Below are positions 9,998 to 27,471 of a DNA stretch of 27,471 bases, piece after piece. The translations under genes were made by a program, and so were the position numbers. Source of the stretch: a virus; IMG/VR virus record IMGVR_UViG_3300008116_000267, positions 1 through 27,471 of that record; one strand, 5' to 3'. How positions within the stretch are numbered: position 1 is the first letter of the stretch; the number at the start of each line of letters is the position of its first letter. The notes beneath the pieces are model-generated. The model saw nothing but the letters and a program-made list of their open reading frames with translations. It ran no database searches and was not told the origin of the DNA.

Positions 9998-10359
9998 GAT
10001 GCGATTCTCTCACCATGCAAGGCAATTGTGATCTCGACCTTTCCGCCTGGCTCGGGATCCTGCCAGACCAAATGCAAGCTGCGCACCTGGTGATCATCCT
10101 GCCACACTCGCGCTCGAGTCAGACTGTCGGCCAAAACCTTCCAGGCATTATCCAAATCGCGTCGGCGATTGTCTGGCGGATACAGCCGGCACTCGACTAT
10201 AACGGGCACATCCAGGTTAACCATCTTGCCCTGCTGCATGACGGCGTACTGCACGTCGCGATAGAACCCTTTGGCCTTCTCGCCCAGATAAGTCCTGCCT
10301 TGCCCTTTGCGCCACATCGTGTTGCCCGAAGGTGGGTACGGTAAGGTGAGGTTGATCAT
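9994..10359 (-). CDS. rusA: RusA-like Holliday junction resolvase
   Basis: This 121-residue protein has the RusA pattern throughout. LPYPPSGNTMWR lies near the start, then GRTYLGEKAKGFYRDV, and the acidic motif PPDNRRRDLDNAWK around residues 62-75. SLTRARVWQDDHQVR follows at about residues 79-93. The aspartates of RRDLDN and WQDD are the metal-binding catalytic residues in this family. RusA dimers cut four-way junctions symmetrically, and in phages they debranch recombination or replication intermediates before packaging. Its position next to terminase fits that role. The start overlaps the upstream stop (ATGA), and its own stop overlaps the small terminase start. Confidence 0.92.
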   Translation of the reverse strand: MINLTLPYPPSGNTMWRKGQGRTYLGEKAKGFYRDVQYAVMQQGKMVNLDVPVIVECRLYPPDNRRRDLDNAWKVLADSLTRARVWQDDHQVRSLHLVWQDPEPGGKVEITIALHGERIAS

Positions 10360-10583
10360 CGCTTCCCCTTGACCATCATGGTGCTTTGGATGGTTGCGTC
10401 AATGCAGGTGCCTTCCATCTGCGTAATCACCTCGTTCAATGCTGTTGCCATGTTGTGCATTTTTTGCTTTTGCTCAACCAGGACTTCCTGGCACAGCGCC
10501 TCGCTCGTGAAGTAGCGCGTCTGCTGCATGAACTCGCAATTGCCAGCGATGCACAAGAAAAGCACCGGGATAAAAATTGTCAT
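10356..10583 (-). CDS. Small exported or membrane-anchored protein
   Basis: This 75-residue product begins MTIFIPVLFLCIAGNCEFMQ, a short hydrophobic segment that could be a signal peptide or anchor. A hydrophilic helical region with further cysteines (ALCQEV, EGTCID) follows. A strong AAGGAG ribosome-binding site precedes the ATG at 10583. It is the first gene after the TGTCCCA repeat array and overlaps the RusA start by ATGA. Four cysteines suggest disulfides outside the cytoplasm. The function is unknown, and no family is recognised. Confidence 0.65.
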   Translation of the reverse strand: MTIFIPVLFLCIAGNCEFMQQTRYFTSEALCQEVLVEQKQKMHNMATALNEVITQMEGTCIDATIQSTMMVKGKR

Positions 10584-10605: not shown

Positions 10606-10800
10606 TGTCCCAGGGGTGTCCCATACTGTCCCACCTTATATAAGGTGGTGGGACATGGGACACTGACCGTCCCAAGGTGTCCCAGATCGTTTTGGGACAA
10701 AACTACCGCACGTTTGCTACGTTTTACGGTTAGTGTCCACTCTTGTCCCAGCAAGTCTGGGACAGTCCAATCACAAGGTGTCCCAGGCGTTTCTGGGACA
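10606..10800. repeat. TGTCCCA heptamer array (candidate iterons or operators)
   Basis: Eleven exact copies of TGTCCCA lie in 195 bases. The plus-strand orientation starts at 10606, 10617, 10627, 10678, 10744 and 10779. The inverted orientation occupies 10649-10655, 10656-10662, 10693-10699, 10758-10764 and 10794-10800. Degenerate copies lie at 10669 (GTCCCA) and 10734 (TGTCCA). Several pair as inverted repeats: an 8-bp arm pair at 10744-10751/10757-10764, a 9-bp arm pair at 10778-10786/10793-10801, and a 7-bp pair at 10678/10693. The array lies between the primase-helicase and the next gene. This looks like a multi-site protein-binding region: a replication origin, a late-operon control region or a partition or packaging site. 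Which of these is inference. Confidence 0.85.
10631..10648. repeat. 18-bp perfect palindrome with AT-rich centre
   Basis: CCACCTTATATAAGGTGG is a perfect palindrome whose centre is TTATATAA. TGTCCCA copies overlap its left end (10627-10633) and abut its right end (10649-10655). An easily melted core flanked by repeats in opposite orientations would suit strand opening at an origin, or a symmetrical operator over a TATATA promoter box. Confidence 0.8.
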
Positions 10801-10831: not shown

Positions 10832-12700
10832 TCACTTTGATCTCTTCCAAACAGGTTTGCCGTGCCCCAAAATCTCGTGCCCGGCGCGCGAGAGCTCATC
10901 CAATCCAGCCTGCGTGATGCCCTGCTCGCCTATAAATCCCAAGCGCTTCAATGCGCCCATGACGCGCCCAGCAGTGGACTTCGATACCATCAGCGGATCC
11001 TCCAGCTGGCGAGCCGTGTGCCACTTCTGGTCAAGGATCTTCAACACGTCGATGGCCGTGATCTGGGTGCCGTCGGTGCGCTTGGCCAGCTGCGAATGGA
11101 TCATGTCGCCGGCCACGTCCAGCACCGCGGAGGTCACCGGGTTGCCGTCTTCATCCAACAAACCGGGCAGCTCGACGCCCTTTAACTTCAGCATCATCTC
11201 GGGCGGAATCTCGGCGTCTTTCATCTTTGTAAAGCGCACCCGGACCAGGCCCGAGTCATCCCGCGAGACTTCGCACTCCGCGTCCACCGCGGCTTTTAAT
11301 GCCGAGGATCCGCGCGCCCGCTCCATGTTGTGCCCGGCGTGATGGACGGTCGCCACGCAGCAGCCAAACGGCCGGCGCAGCCATTTGTCCAGGTGGGAGA
11401 TGAAGACCGACATGTCTTCAGTGGAGTTTTCGTCGCCGGCGCCAAAGTTACGGGCCAAGGTATCGATGCAAATGAAGGCCGGTGCCTGACCACTGGCGTC
11501 GCACGTGCGTGCGATCTGCTCATACACCGCGCGGATGCTGTCCTCATCAAGCGCCGCCATGGCGCCGCCCGACTTGAACAGTGTCCCTGGGACAATCGGG
11601 ACACCGTGGGACACTTCCCAGGCTTTGAATCGCCTGGCCAGACCGTTGTGGCCTTCGCCGGCGATATAGAACACCGGCCCCTGCTTGACCTGGCGCTCAA
11701 AGAACGCGTTGCCGGTGGCAATTGCGCAAGCAATGTCGACTGCAAAAAAAGATTTGCCGCCGCCCGGTTGCCCGTAGATCAGCGCCAGGGAATCCGCCTC
11801 AAACGCATCGCGCACCAGCCAGTCAATGGGCTTAATGTCAGCGATCAAATCTGACACATCAAAAAATGGGAAGTTGCCGGGATTGTCGTTACTGGATTGA
11901 TCTACATCAAACGCATCGACTGTATTGTTGACAATGTCATCAACAGTAGCGCCCGCTTCGATCCAGTCGGCCAAGTCTTTACCTGACGTAGGATTGACGA
12001 CTCTGACGCTGCGCGCCTTGTCTCGCAGGGTACTAATTACCCATTCAGCGTGACGCCCGCCAGGCTCGTCCTGGTCCGGCACGACCACGACATCTGCGCC
12101 CCGCAAGAGTTCCCCGAACTCCGGCAGCCACTTGTTGCCGGACCCGTTGTCCGCACCCATCGCATTGCAGGTCGCAACCAGACCCAAGGACCGCGCTACC
12201 TCAACGTCCTTCTCGCCCTCGCAGACATAAACCGTTTTGCCCTCTGCGATGGCGGCAAGAACTTCGGGTAGCCGATACAGCACCCGGCGCACACCCTTGA
12301 TTGACCAGGTCCACCCGCTGCCATTGATTGGTGCGCGCTGCCTAAAATCCTTCGGCACATACCTCAGTGCCTGGTAGAGCAGCTGGCCATGCTCGTCGGT
12401 GTAGCTGTACTCGGCAATGACCTGGCCTTTTCCTTGCCCCAGATTGATTTGCACCGGTAATGGATCCGGTGAAATGACTGTTTTAGGTGTGTTCCAAAGA
12501 CCGCGCGCCTTGAGTTCTGCCACCACGTCCGCCTGTGCGCAGCCTGCATGACAGTGGACTAGAAGCTTGCCGTTGGACTCTTCTTTGATAGATAGCGACG
12601 CGCGCTGGTCTTCGTGCGCTGGACAGCGGCACGACCAGTTGTCGCCAGATTTTGATGCGCCGCCTAGATGGCGTGCTATAGATTCCGAAGTTAACTGCAT
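10832..12700 (-). CDS. Primase-helicase (zinc finger, Toprim and RepA-like ATPase)
   Basis: This 622-residue replication protein is modular. An N-terminal zinc-binding region has CPAH (C26, H29) and CHAGC (C50-C54). A Toprim domain has VYVCEGEKD (Glu near 161) and VVVPDQDEPGG (Asp-x-Asp near 209-211). A RecA/RepA-like ATPase has Walker A GQPGGGKS at about 309-316, Walker B FICIDTL near 409-414 and a VHHAGH segment near 451-456. The C-terminal 80 residues look like a winged-helix DNA-binding tail. Together these indicate a combined primase and replicative helicase for phage DNA synthesis. It is the second leftward gene after cro, follows a structured leader, and ends about 30 bases from the TGTCCCA array. 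No phage DNA polymerase is visible, so host polymerase is probably used. Confidence 0.9.
   Translation of the reverse strand: MQLTSESIARHLGGASKSGDNWSCRCPAHEDQRASLSIKEESNGKLLVHCHAGCAQADVVAELKARGLWNTPKTVISPDPLPVQINLGQGKGQVIAEYSYTDEHGQLLYQALRYVPKDFRQRAPINGSGWTWSIKGVRRVLYRLPEVLAAIAEGKTVYVCEGEKDVEVARSLGLVATCNAMGADNGSGNKWLPEFGELLRGADVVVVPDQDEPGGRHAEWVISTLRDKARSVRVVNPTSGKDLADWIEAGATVDDIVNNTVDAFDVDQSSNDNPGNFPFFDVSDLIADIKPIDWLVRDAFEADSLALIYGQPGGGKSFFAVDIACAIATGNAFFERQVKQGPVFYIAGEGHNGLARRFKAWEVSHGVPIVPGTLFKSGGAMAALDEDSIRAVYEQIARTCDASGQAPAFICIDTLARNFGAGDENSTEDMSVFISHLDKWLRRPFGCCVATVHHAGHNMERARGSSALKAAVDAECEVSRDDSGLVRVRFTKMKDAEIPPEMMLKLKGVELPGLLDEDGNPVTSAVLDVAGDMIHSQLAKRTDGTQITAIDVLKILDQKWHTARQLEDPLMVSKSTAGRVMGALKRLGFIGEQGITQAGLDELSRAGHEILGHGKPVWKRSK
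11582..11613. repeat. TGTCCC/GGGACA cluster inside the primase-helicase gene
   Basis: Within 32 bases of the coding sequence (codons about 363-373) there is one TGTCCC and three GGGACA hexamers. Two are full TGGGACA heptamers (11588-11594 and 11607-11613), and the first two elements form the 13-bp near-palindrome TGTCCCTGGGACA. The same motif forms the array about 0.8 kb downstream. It encodes part of the ATPase domain, so the motif is kept within coding constraints, much as lambda iterons lie within gene O. Confidence 0.6.
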
Positions 12701-12724
12701 CCCCGTCCCATTGTTGTTTTTTTG

Positions 12725-12811
12725 CCCTGTCCTTAAAGATGCCAGCGCCGATATTCGGGACAGGGGAGTCGATGAAACCCTCGTTAGCTAGACAAGGGCA
12801 TCGGCGCTGGC
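12725..12811 (-). promoter_or_regulatory. Structured leader between cro and primase with competing hairpins
   Basis: Two perfect inverted repeats overlap here. Arms GCCAGCGCCGAT (12741-12752) and ATCGGCGCTGGC (12800-12811) pair over a 47-base loop. Arms CCCTGTCC (12725-12732) and GGACAGGG (12758-12765) pair over a loop that contains the first arm of the other repeat. On the leftward transcript the two hairpins cannot both form cleanly, which is the layout of an attenuator or translational switch ahead of the primase start at 12700. The second hairpin includes the TGTCC motif seen in the array. Function is inference; the repeats are directly visible. Confidence 0.55.
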
Positions 12812-12845
12812 GGTTAGATTATCGCACCGTGTTGGGTTATTCTCA

Positions 12846-13094
12846 TCAACTAGGCCGAGGCAATCCGGCCAGCGTTTGTGCGTCCAGCACCACACCACGC
12901 TTGGCCGCTTGCGCAATCAAGCTGCCCCAATGTCGCTGCGGAATCCGGCCACCCGTACCACCTAATGGCGCCGGCGTACACCAGCGAGACACCGCTGACG
13001 GACTCACGCCCACCAATCGCGCCACTGCCCGACAACCGCCCAATCGCATCACCACCGACATTGCGGGCTGCGCATCGTGTTTTGTTTTACTCAT
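12846..13094 (-). CDS. Cro-like transcriptional regulator
   Basis: This 82-residue basic protein contains a helix-turn-helix: MRLGGCRAVARLVGVSPSAV continues into SRW at about residues 16-38. A GGTGGRIPQRHWGSLIAQAA segment follows. The GG..AVA...GVS..AVS.W pattern and the following GG.IP..H...L block are typical of small Cro/YdaS-like phage regulators. It is divergently oriented from the CI-like gene across a 149-base control region and is the first gene of the leftward unit, the expected position of Cro. It probably represses the cI promoter and commits the phage to lytic growth. A short GAGA precedes the ATG as a weak ribosome-binding site. Confidence 0.8.
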   Translation of the reverse strand: MSKTKHDAQPAMSVVMRLGGCRAVARLVGVSPSAVSRWCTPAPLGGTGGRIPQRHWGSLIAQAAKRGVVLDAQTLAGLPRPS

Positions 13095-13243
13095 CGCTTA
13101 TCTCAAAAAAAACCAACACTTACAGATTCAATAAAATCCTTCGCCCCTTCAATACTTTGTTGCCCACAAGAATGATTATAACTGCCGTTGACTCCATGTT
13201 GCGTTTGCCTCAATATCTAGAGCCCAATCCCGATATAAGCTCA
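13095..13243. promoter_or_regulatory. Divergent cI/cro control region
   Basis: This is the 149-base gap between the divergent cro and cI starts, richer in A and T than its surroundings. On the minus strand there is an exact TATAAT (13175-13180), a good -10 for cro and the leftward operon, but no good -35 at 16-18 bases; GCAAC-type sequence is all that is present. On the plus strand, TTGACT (13188-13193) lies upstream of TATCTA (13214-13219) at a long spacing, so the cI promoter is uncertain. A TTGAGAT element (minus strand, 13100-13106) recurs downstream of cI. No long operator palindrome is obvious. Confidence 0.5.
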
Positions 13244-16336: not shown

Positions 16337-17434
16337 ATGAGACTACCTGAACCTGTTCACACCCACACTACGGCAGACGCAATCGTGCAGTGGTGGGACA
16401 AGCAACCTGACGAGCCGCGCCCACACTTGGGCGCAAGTGAGATTGGCCGGCCGTGCGACCGCGCTATCTGGTACAGCTTCCGCTGGGCCACGAAGAAGAA
16501 ATTCCCAGGCCGCATCAAGCGCCTGTTCGATCGCGGCAACCGTGAAGAAGAAGTCTTCATGCGCGAGCTCAAGGGGATCGGTGCCGAGGTTTATGACCGC
16601 GACCCGGTGACCGGCTTGCAGCACCGCTTTGAGGCGATCGATGGCCACTTCGGCGGCAGCTGTGACGGCGTCGCACGCAACCTGCCCGAGGCGCCTAAGA
16701 GCTGGTGCATTGTGGAATTCAAAACCCACGGCAACAAGTCATTCACCGACCTGGTGGCCAAGGGCGTTGAAGAATCCAAGCCCGAGCACTACGCACAGAT
16801 GCAGGTCTACATGGGATTAGCTGAGCTCGAGCGCGCTTTGTACCTGGCGGTGAACAAAGACACCGACGAGCTGCACAGTGAATGGATCCACTTCGACAAG
16901 GCTGCATTCGCAGCGCTGCTTGAGCGTGCCGAGAAGATCATCCGCGCCGACGAGCCGCCGCCAGGCATCAGCACCGACCCGGCTTGGTGGCAGTGCAAGA
17001 TGTGCGACCACCAGAATGTATGCCACGGCGAGTTTGCTGCGATAAAAAACTGCCGCACCTGCGTGCATGCAAGCCCAGCACACGACGCACTGTGGCATTG
17101 CGCAGCACACAAGCGCAACCTGTCCGTGGCCGAGCAGCGTATCGGCTGCCGGTCCCACTTGGTGCTGCCACCGCTGGTGGCTTATGCCGAGGCGATCGAC
17201 GCGGGCCCTGACTTCATCAAGTACCAGCACAAAGACGACGGGACCATCTTTGCCAACTGCACCGAGGACGCAGACAAGAGCGAAGAAAACATGGGCACCG
17301 ACATTGTGGCTTGCTTTGACAGCGCCGAGCTGCAGCACGTGCCGCGCTCACAACTGTCGGACAAATTTACTTTAGAGATCCGAGAAACTTTTGGCGCGCG
17401 CATGGTGGGTGGCGAGAAATTGGAGAGCGCATGA
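16337..17434 (+). CDS. Cas4/RecB-like PD-(D/E)XK nuclease with Fe-S-type cysteines
   Basis: This 365-residue protein has a nuclease core: FGGSCDGV (Asp110), IVEFKTH (Glu127-x-Lys129) and a QMQVYM motif at about residues 154-159. That is the D...ExK...QxxxY order of the RecB/Cas4 exonuclease family. Cys40 (GRPCDR) together with C220-x2-C223-x5-C229 matches the four-cysteine iron-sulfur arrangement of Cas4 and AddB nucleases. A second set, C239, C242, C255 and C271, may bind zinc. The probable role is DNA end resection for the neighbouring Sak4-like annealase. The start has a GAGAG site and follows a structured gap. The activity is inferred from motifs. Confidence 0.82.
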   Translation: MRLPEPVHTHTTADAIVQWWDKQPDEPRPHLGASEIGRPCDRAIWYSFRWATKKKFPGRIKRLFDRGNREEEVFMRELKGIGAEVYDRDPVTGLQHRFEAIDGHFGGSCDGVARNLPEAPKSWCIVEFKTHGNKSFTDLVAKGVEESKPEHYAQMQVYMGLAELERALYLAVNKDTDELHSEWIHFDKAAFAALLERAEKIIRADEPPPGISTDPAWWQCKMCDHQNVCHGEFAAIKNCRTCVHASPAHDALWHCAAHKRNLSVAEQRIGCRSHLVLPPLVAYAEAIDAGPDFIKYQHKDDGTIFANCTEDADKSEENMGTDIVACFDSAELQHVPRSQLSDKFTLEIRETFGARMVGGEKLESA

Positions 17435-26318: not shown

Positions 26319-27471
26319 TCATCGAGCCAAGCTGTTCTTGAATGGACTGGAAGCAAACGCAGCGTACACATATGTTGATCCAGACCCGTTAAATTGTGAG
26401 TTGCTGGTTCGCAGTTTGAATCCGTTTGAAAGACAGTCGATAGCAGTAAACGTTGTTTCTGCGTCACTTACATCTGGACGCAAATACAAATCCATGACGT
26501 TGTATGTGTTTCGCACTGTGTCATAGACATACCACCCTGTGCCAGCCGCAGAAGAACACTTAATCAGCACCCACCGTGGCAAGAATCCTGTAAAAATCAT
26601 AGGCCCATCCGCTGACCCGTTACCCGTGTAGCTGCCGAACTTACTAAAGCCTGCGACTTCGGAGAAGGCATAGCAGACCATCGTCTGCGTGTTTGCATTT
26701 GTGTTTGCCCAAGTGCCAAGCGTAATATCAGACGAGTTAGGCAAAGTGCTGTTCATAAACGTGGACAGCGATGCTTTTGCGTTAGTCAAATTTAAATAGA
26801 CATACTCGTTTACAGCAAATGACTTGTGCCACACAGGCCAGTTGTCTGCTGCATTGCGAGGCTTAAAAATCATCATGCTCGGCGCAACACCCAGCGAGTG
26901 CGCCACCGTCCTGTTCGCACCAGTGCCGGTATACGTCACAATGTCGAAGCCCTGCGTTGCGCCTTCTTTCCACTGCCAGCCGACAGCAGCCACGCCGTTG
27001 TTGTTATAGCCACTTGCAGAACCTAGCGCAAAACCGTTTGCATTGAATGCGGTGACTCCATTCGTATCTGTGGTTTCTGCATTTGTAAGATTGGAGTACA
27101 GAGCCTTCGTTGCGCCACGAACTGCATCGACAAGATTGTGGCCGGCAGATAGACCGCGCATCTTTGTCCACACAAGATCAGGCTGAAAGCCGCCAGCATT
27201 AACGATGCTTTGTGTCGAGCCATTACCCGTATAGGTCGTCGCATCAAAATACTGATTGCCCTTCAGGATGGTCGGCGTTGGCAGGTTCAGCGTGTTCAGT
27301 GCTTTGAAGCCTGTTGGTGGTGTGTAGGTGAAGGGGCGCTGGCCGAAGTTCCAATTTACGCTGTTGCTGTACACATTAGAAAATGGGAACAGACCAACCA
27401 TTGATGTTGTTGATGTCGCGTTTGCGCCAGTAGCAGGGTCACCGTTTGCTGTGTATGTTGAGTTATACCAA
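26319..27471 (-). CDS. Tail fibre / receptor-binding protein, C-terminal part (5' end beyond window)
   Basis: The frame is open from the right edge, so the N-terminus is missing and about 383 residues are seen; the in-frame ATG at 27401 is probably internal. Near the visible start is FGQRPFTYTPPTGFKALNTL, a segment that typically ends SPRY-like phage domains. A repeating beta-rich region follows with Tyr-Thr-Gly-Asn/Thr-Gly motifs (TYTGNGSTQSI, TYTGTGANRTV, SYTGNGSADGP) and the ending AAFASSPFKNSLAR. This matches the DUF7483 type of C-terminal domain in phage tail fibres. It probably lies at the host-contact end. Receptor specificity cannot be read from the sequence. Confidence 0.78.
   Translation of the reverse strand, partial: WYNSTYTANGDPATGANATSTTSMVGLFPFSNVYSNSVNWNFGQRPFTYTPPTGFKALNTLNLPTPTILKGNQYFDATTYTGNGSTQSIVNAGGFQPDLVWTKMRGLSAGHNLVDAVRGATKALYSNLTNAETTDTNGVTAFNANGFALGSASGYNNNGVAAVGWQWKEGATQGFDIVTYTGTGANRTVAHSLGVAPSMMIFKPRNAADNWPVWHKSFAVNEYVYLNLTNAKASLSTFMNSTLPNSSDITLGTWANTNANTQTMVCYAFSEVAGFSKFGSYTGNGSADGPMIFTGFLPRWVLIKCSSAAGTGWYVYDTVRNTYNVMDLYLRPDVSDAETTFTAIDCLSNGFKLRTSNSQFNGSGSTYVYAAFASSPFKNSLAR

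Follow-up and report, generated by a model that had tools for sequence, protein, structure and literature searches.

What does a dense array of one heptamer, repeated in both orientations directly 3' of a primase-helicase gene, do for the virus that carries it? We addressed this question in the window, by which we mean the complete stretch of viral DNA analyzed (27,471 bp; positions 1 to 27,471 of IMG/VR record IMGVR_UViG_3300008116_000267). Eleven exact copies of TGTCCCA/TGGGACA were counted within the 195 bp at 10606-10800, in agreement with the initial annotation of the locus. TGTCCCA is read on the + strand six times (10606..10612, 10617..10623, 10627..10633, 10678..10684, 10744..10750 and 10779..10785) and on the - strand five times (10649..10655, 10656..10662, 10693..10699, 10758..10764 and 10794..10800). 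Numbered by position, words 3 (10627..10633) and 4 (10649..10655) form the two flanks of a core palindrome, CCACCTTATATAAGGTGG (10631..10648, no strand), the equivalents of which in relatives also lie between words (e.g. CCCCTATAAGGGG and TCATCTATATAGATGA). Two degenerate + strand sites, CGTCCCA (10668..10674) and TGTCCAC (10734..10740, an inexact copy), are interspersed with the exact words. Four and seven words lie on either side of a 44-bp spacer of average AT content, within which a conserved word-free segment (10704..10730, - strand; + strand TACCGCACGTTTGCTACGTTTTACGGT) marks the site of a constant element, AAACCCGCATGAATACTGGGTTT, in relatives. AT-rich stretches are found at both outer ends of the array.

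The heptamer occurs 15 times in the whole window, compared with a mean of 3.0 and a maximum of 8 in dinucleotide shuffles (0 of 100 reached 15). The Poisson probability of 11 copies in 195 bp is ~1e-25, or ~1e-17 after correction for all heptamers and positions. Inverted pairs had been described as spaced by 5-8 bases, which holds only if longer arms are counted; the clean inverted pairs have gaps of 7, 8, 8 and 15 bp. The array starts 32 bp 3' of the primase-helicase stop codon and spans 32-226 bp after it, in a gap bounded on the other side by a 75-aa frame (10356-10583) and then by RusA and terminase genes. An 83-aa frame that overlaps the gap is absent from a 90% identical relative (L255), and on this ground the gap was taken as non-coding and a conserved coding frame through the array was rejected. 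Searched against GenBank phages, the array DNA returned chance-level matches only. GC skew of the window, put forward earlier as a check for origin position, showed no turn at the array. Frames at 3-2030 (tail-like) and 26319-27470 run off the ends of the record, which is therefore probably incomplete or permuted.

The adjacent gene (10832..12700, - strand) encodes a 622-aa primase-helicase, the proposed initiator, with a CHC2 zinc finger, a TOPRIM domain, a RepA-type AAA_25 helicase and a C-terminal winged helix. The helicase domain was assigned to AAA_25 by Pfam (7e-37), no Pfam match to the SF3/D5 helicase family was obtained for this protein, and the TOPRIM and CHC2 zinc-finger matches fell below curated cut-offs. 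For the last 80 residues, Pfam gave weak matches to winged helices and nothing stronger. AlphaFold models of the C-terminal part (15 sequences) and of the full protein (17 sequences) both predicted a winged helix, with a MarR-like fold at aa 545-610 (10871..11068, - strand) and a recognition helix at aa 574-587 (KSTAGRVMGALKRL; 10940..10981, - strand). Foldseek searches with this domain retrieved winged helices of the MarR type (probability up to 0.99, rmsd ~2, E-value at best 0.14); weak E-values are expected because the domain is short. The C-terminal part is also the fastest-diverging region of the primase-helicase.

To assess the arrays of relatives, we collected helicase homologs from viral and genome contigs, giving 135 distinct proteins with 3' flanks in 62 groups below 60% identity, and scored each 800-bp block by its best cluster of a 6-8-base word, a cluster being called strong when a score of 8 was reached. 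The block at the helicase stop contained a strong word cluster in 35 of the 62 groups compared with 12 of 406 control blocks, and was the best-scoring block of its locus in 42 of 62 (8.7 expected); no strong cluster was found at the helicase stop in the remaining 27 families. The words vary by lineage and include TGCCCCA, CGTTCA, TGTCCA, GTATCA, TATCACC, TTGGTTCA and TTGCTCA, as well as CGGACA, CGGGACA, CGGGAAA, CGTGACA, CGTCACA, CGTGCGA and more. The finding that would have refuted an iteron-like system, namely relatives with the same helicase and no nearby cluster, was not what we obtained: clusters recur in the same place and their words vary in step with the protein. The array of some families extends into the 3' end of the helicase gene, and that of L249 and L232 lies 640-1090 bp beyond the stop. 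L231 and L232 encode helicases that are 99% identical, but ~340 bp of additional DNA sets the L232 array farther from its gene; direct adjacency of the two is therefore not required. In two clades (L290, L291, L289, L284, L231 and L230), perfect DnaA boxes (TTATCCACA) lie <500 bp from the helicase stop, with four of them in L290.

This survey bears on two readings that do not involve replication. Terminase genes come after RusA in the window, and the array could be a packaging (pac/cos) or partition site; we give this little credence, since arrays of other families follow the helicase without an adjacent terminase and since plasmids carry such arrays. The paired words could also act as RNA hairpins or terminators in a leftward transcript, there being several inverted pairs and one terminator-like structure on the + strand. 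This is hardly credible, as other families have unpaired or same-orientation words (nine in one orientation in L045) or words inside the helicase gene, and an Rfam search of the window and of the constant-element loci returned no family.

A closer comparison is between the window and its close relatives L009-L011/L255, three identical proteins that are 90% identical to the window type and were counted once. The L255 array aligns site for site with that of the window, and 11 of 11 words read TGCCCCA instead of TGTCCCA. The other six word positions are identical at 66 of 66 comparisons and the spacers at 73 of 118, and both degenerate sites switch like the exact words. Within the recognition helix, 5 of 14 residues differ between the two proteins (S575G, A577V, G578S, M581V and A583G; hypergeometric P 0.008), an enrichment that we regard as modest; a scan for the densest window of changes anywhere in the protein was weaker (P 0.10). 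A natural control pair of comparable identity (L229 and L262, 91%) differs at 2 helix residues, and 12 of its 13 words are the same. L250, which is 66% identical to both types, resembles the window in beginning the helix with SKSTAG and in having the half-word TGTCC, compared with SKGTVS and TGCCC in L255. Another group with a similar core carries CGGGACA in L196, mixed CGGGA(G/A) words in L197 and CGGGAAA in L198. The contrast between the window and L255 is one evolutionary event, and the switch rests on one close pair together with the wider contrasts.

Two exact words also lie inside the helicase gene (11588 and 11607; 11588..11613, - strand), and their role is uncertain. In the 90% relative one of the two switches and the other is lost. 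At these words two valine codons change from GTC to GCC in that relative, in step with the array word and with the protein altered. As a general second cluster the in-gene words were rejected, since outside the window/L255 pair they were seen, weakly, in L250 alone.

The spacing and orientation of the sites were kept across lineages with five different words. In the window, the site offsets and orientations are 0+ 15- 36+ 50- 101+ 116- 138+ 145+ 167- 177- 188-, and most of these offsets recur within a few bases in L252 (CGTTCA), L250 (TGTCCA) and L229 (GTATCA). The arrays are homologous by descent, so the point is not whether the layouts agree by chance; it is that the layout persisted through changes of word. 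Two parts recur independently of the word: the palindrome between words near one end of the array, described above for the window, and the spacer occupied by the constant element in several relatives.

These comparisons also bear on a regulatory reading, in which Cro, CI or a late regulator would use the array as its operator, or the array would control a late promoter. The window belongs to a temperate phage with Cro-like and CI-like genes nearby, which speaks for such a reading, and yet the cro/CI region (12690-13200) contains zero words, the words co-vary with the C-terminus of the helicase, and arrays persist where the following genes differ; we consider it very improbable. Of the functions offered in the initial annotation, the iteron or origin option is the one favored, an iteron-like system beside the primase-helicase being supported, and no support was found for the late-promoter, packaging and partition options.

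We think it likely that the array serves as an iteron-type replication origin, either entire or as the core that acts in cis, and that the adjacent primase-helicase binds it with its C-terminal winged helix. This assignment draws on sequence comparison, structure prediction and analogy with characterized systems; there is no binding or replication experiment, and origin function is accordingly an inference. That the C-terminal domain recognizes the words sequence-specifically is likewise inferred, from the co-variation of the two. Under this model, the TGTCCCA words would be bound by the recognition helix of the winged helix, and several copies bound in fixed geometry would assemble the helicase on the DNA. 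The duplex may then open at the word-palindrome-word core (CCTTATATAAGG) or at the AT-rich flanks, after which the helicase would load, the TOPRIM domain would prime, and host replication proteins would take over. The computations establish the array, where it lies in many relatives, the concerted change of its words, its conserved geometry and the fold predicted for the protein; protein binding, melting, loading and priming at the array are all inferred steps. If the word is set by the recognition helix, initiator and array would be expected to change together.

Arrays were also present in circular plasmids in which the only evident replication gene encodes a primase-helicase or a RepA-type helicase. 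Klebsiella pKp_Goe_795-4 has 5 copies of GTGCGGCA right after this gene, together with a variant constant element; Caenibius p1 has 12 copies of CTTCCGCA right after its replication gene; and Salinibacter pSR14 has 7 copies of GTGGTCCA after a replication gene whose product matches the zinc finger and TOPRIM, and not AAA_25. No convincing array was found at the helicase stop of Streptomyces plasmids H67 and H68 or of Polaromonas pPNAP03. Plasmids that combine gene and array are supporting context only for a need of the array in autonomous replication.

The alpha helicase of P4 is SF3-type, whereas the window helicase is RepA/AAA_25 with no SF3 match, and the repeated word differs. In P4 alpha, as cited in PMC4234260, a TOPRIM primase and a helicase are joined in one protein, and the origin repeats are bound by a winged helix at its C-terminus; the window protein is likewise a TOPRIM-type primase-helicase fusion with a C-terminal winged helix, according to Pfam and AlphaFold. 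The crr repeats of P4, in both orientations, lie directly 3' of alpha (46-345 bp), the same position that the array takes behind the initiator gene in the window. The annotated P4 ori is ~4.5 kb away from crr and has the same repeats, and crr is required though it is not the annotated origin. By analogy, the primase-helicase could bind the words in an array that, like crr, has an accessory or copy-control role, with the true origin at another place in the genome, a reading to which the small second word group within the helicase gene lends some support. We consider it unlikely: P4 has a second array at its separate ori, whereas no second sizeable TGTCCCA cluster was found in the window, only isolated words (single copies at 16394 and 22922), with the reservation that the record may be incomplete, and the array downstream of the initiator gene in SaPI/PICI and SCC elements serves as the (putative) origin itself.

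An origin at the array, our preferred reading, has matching layouts in those elements. SaPI/PICI origins have iteron sets immediately 3' of the initiator helicase gene (PMC6092414), where the words of the window also lie, and the C-terminal domain of SaPI Rep recognizes iterons downstream of its own gene (PMC7581432). The present arrays differ in occurring in whole phages and plasmids (the window has terminase-, portal- and tail-like frames, unlike satellites without virion genes), in their TOPRIM plus AAA_25 protein, in having more sites on a conserved mixed-orientation scaffold, and perhaps, in the window, in the absence of a clear arrangement of two iteron sets about a single AT-rich core. 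In SCC elements the iterons bound by the C-terminal domain of Cch2 lie directly behind the Cch2 gene (PMC7581432), but there the helicase is Cch-type, the iterons are three 5-nt units and the primase-polymerase is separate. The DNA-binding domain of RepA from the PLE satellites of Vibrio co-varies with the ori iterons, and only cognate pairs replicate (PMC8263062); that system exchanges RepA_N modules, whereas here all words changed in place on a retained scaffold. ORF904 of pRN1 likewise ends in a winged helix, and DNA immediately 3' of its gene is required (PMC4234260), but this plasmid uses a stem-loop and not iterons. The RepA helicase of RSF1010 works at an iteron origin (PMC4234260), with functions split over three proteins (RepA/RepB'/RepC). 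The expectation of a new system therefore holds for the family of the initiator, for the words and for their switching in place, and not for the layout, since iterons 3' of an initiator helicase's own gene are known from P4 crr, SaPI/PICI and SCC.

If this assignment is correct, the window and L255 document a natural case, of a kind seldom seen, in which a replication initiator and its origin changed specificity in concert, and bear on the open question of how an initiator with a dozen sites changes its DNA word without losing replication. Natural pairs of ~90% identity, of which one has switched and the other has not, share the scaffold and make this question directly testable. The assignment would also provide origins, each with its cognate initiator, in a large set of phages and plasmids where none are annotated, and an incompatibility rule in which the same word means the same group.

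The constant element, AAACCCGCATGAATACTGG (~19 nt), was found inside many word arrays beside unrelated initiators (AAA_25, DUF5906/D5, VapE and DUF927 with a Cch-type HTH), the loci being L229, L264, L231 and L353-L461 (e.g. L398:4039-4056); the copy in the window is diverged. An exact scan for AAACCCGCATGAATACTS matched 109 viral stretches, compared with 1 for the reversed pattern. Of the 66 distinct occurrences, 32 fall within a strong word cluster, compared with 43 of 1958 control blocks. The element also lies upstream of rep in small E. coli plasmids, which we infer to be related in type to pIGWZ12, a plasmid whose origin was mapped upstream of rep (PMC6856555). A literature search by the element's sequence returned nothing related, as judged by title. 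As a hairpin the element was rejected, its outer stem pairs being no more frequent than in partner shuffles.

It is possible, and we advance it only tentatively, that in many mobile elements these unrelated initiators (AAA_25, DUF5906/D5, VapE, DUF927-Cch) share one origin plan, consisting of exchangeable initiator-specific words around the constant element, together with a word-palindrome-word core, in which every word is replaced in place while the scaffold is kept. The constant element would then presumably be read by a host factor or by the primase. Many occurrences of the element lie beside integrase, portal or tRNA genes with no obvious word array (L356, L384, L389, L395 and others). One of 398 bacterial genomes contained the element, within a word array; this sole match (L462:1500) is flanked by TGGCAC words and probably represents an unannotated integrated element.
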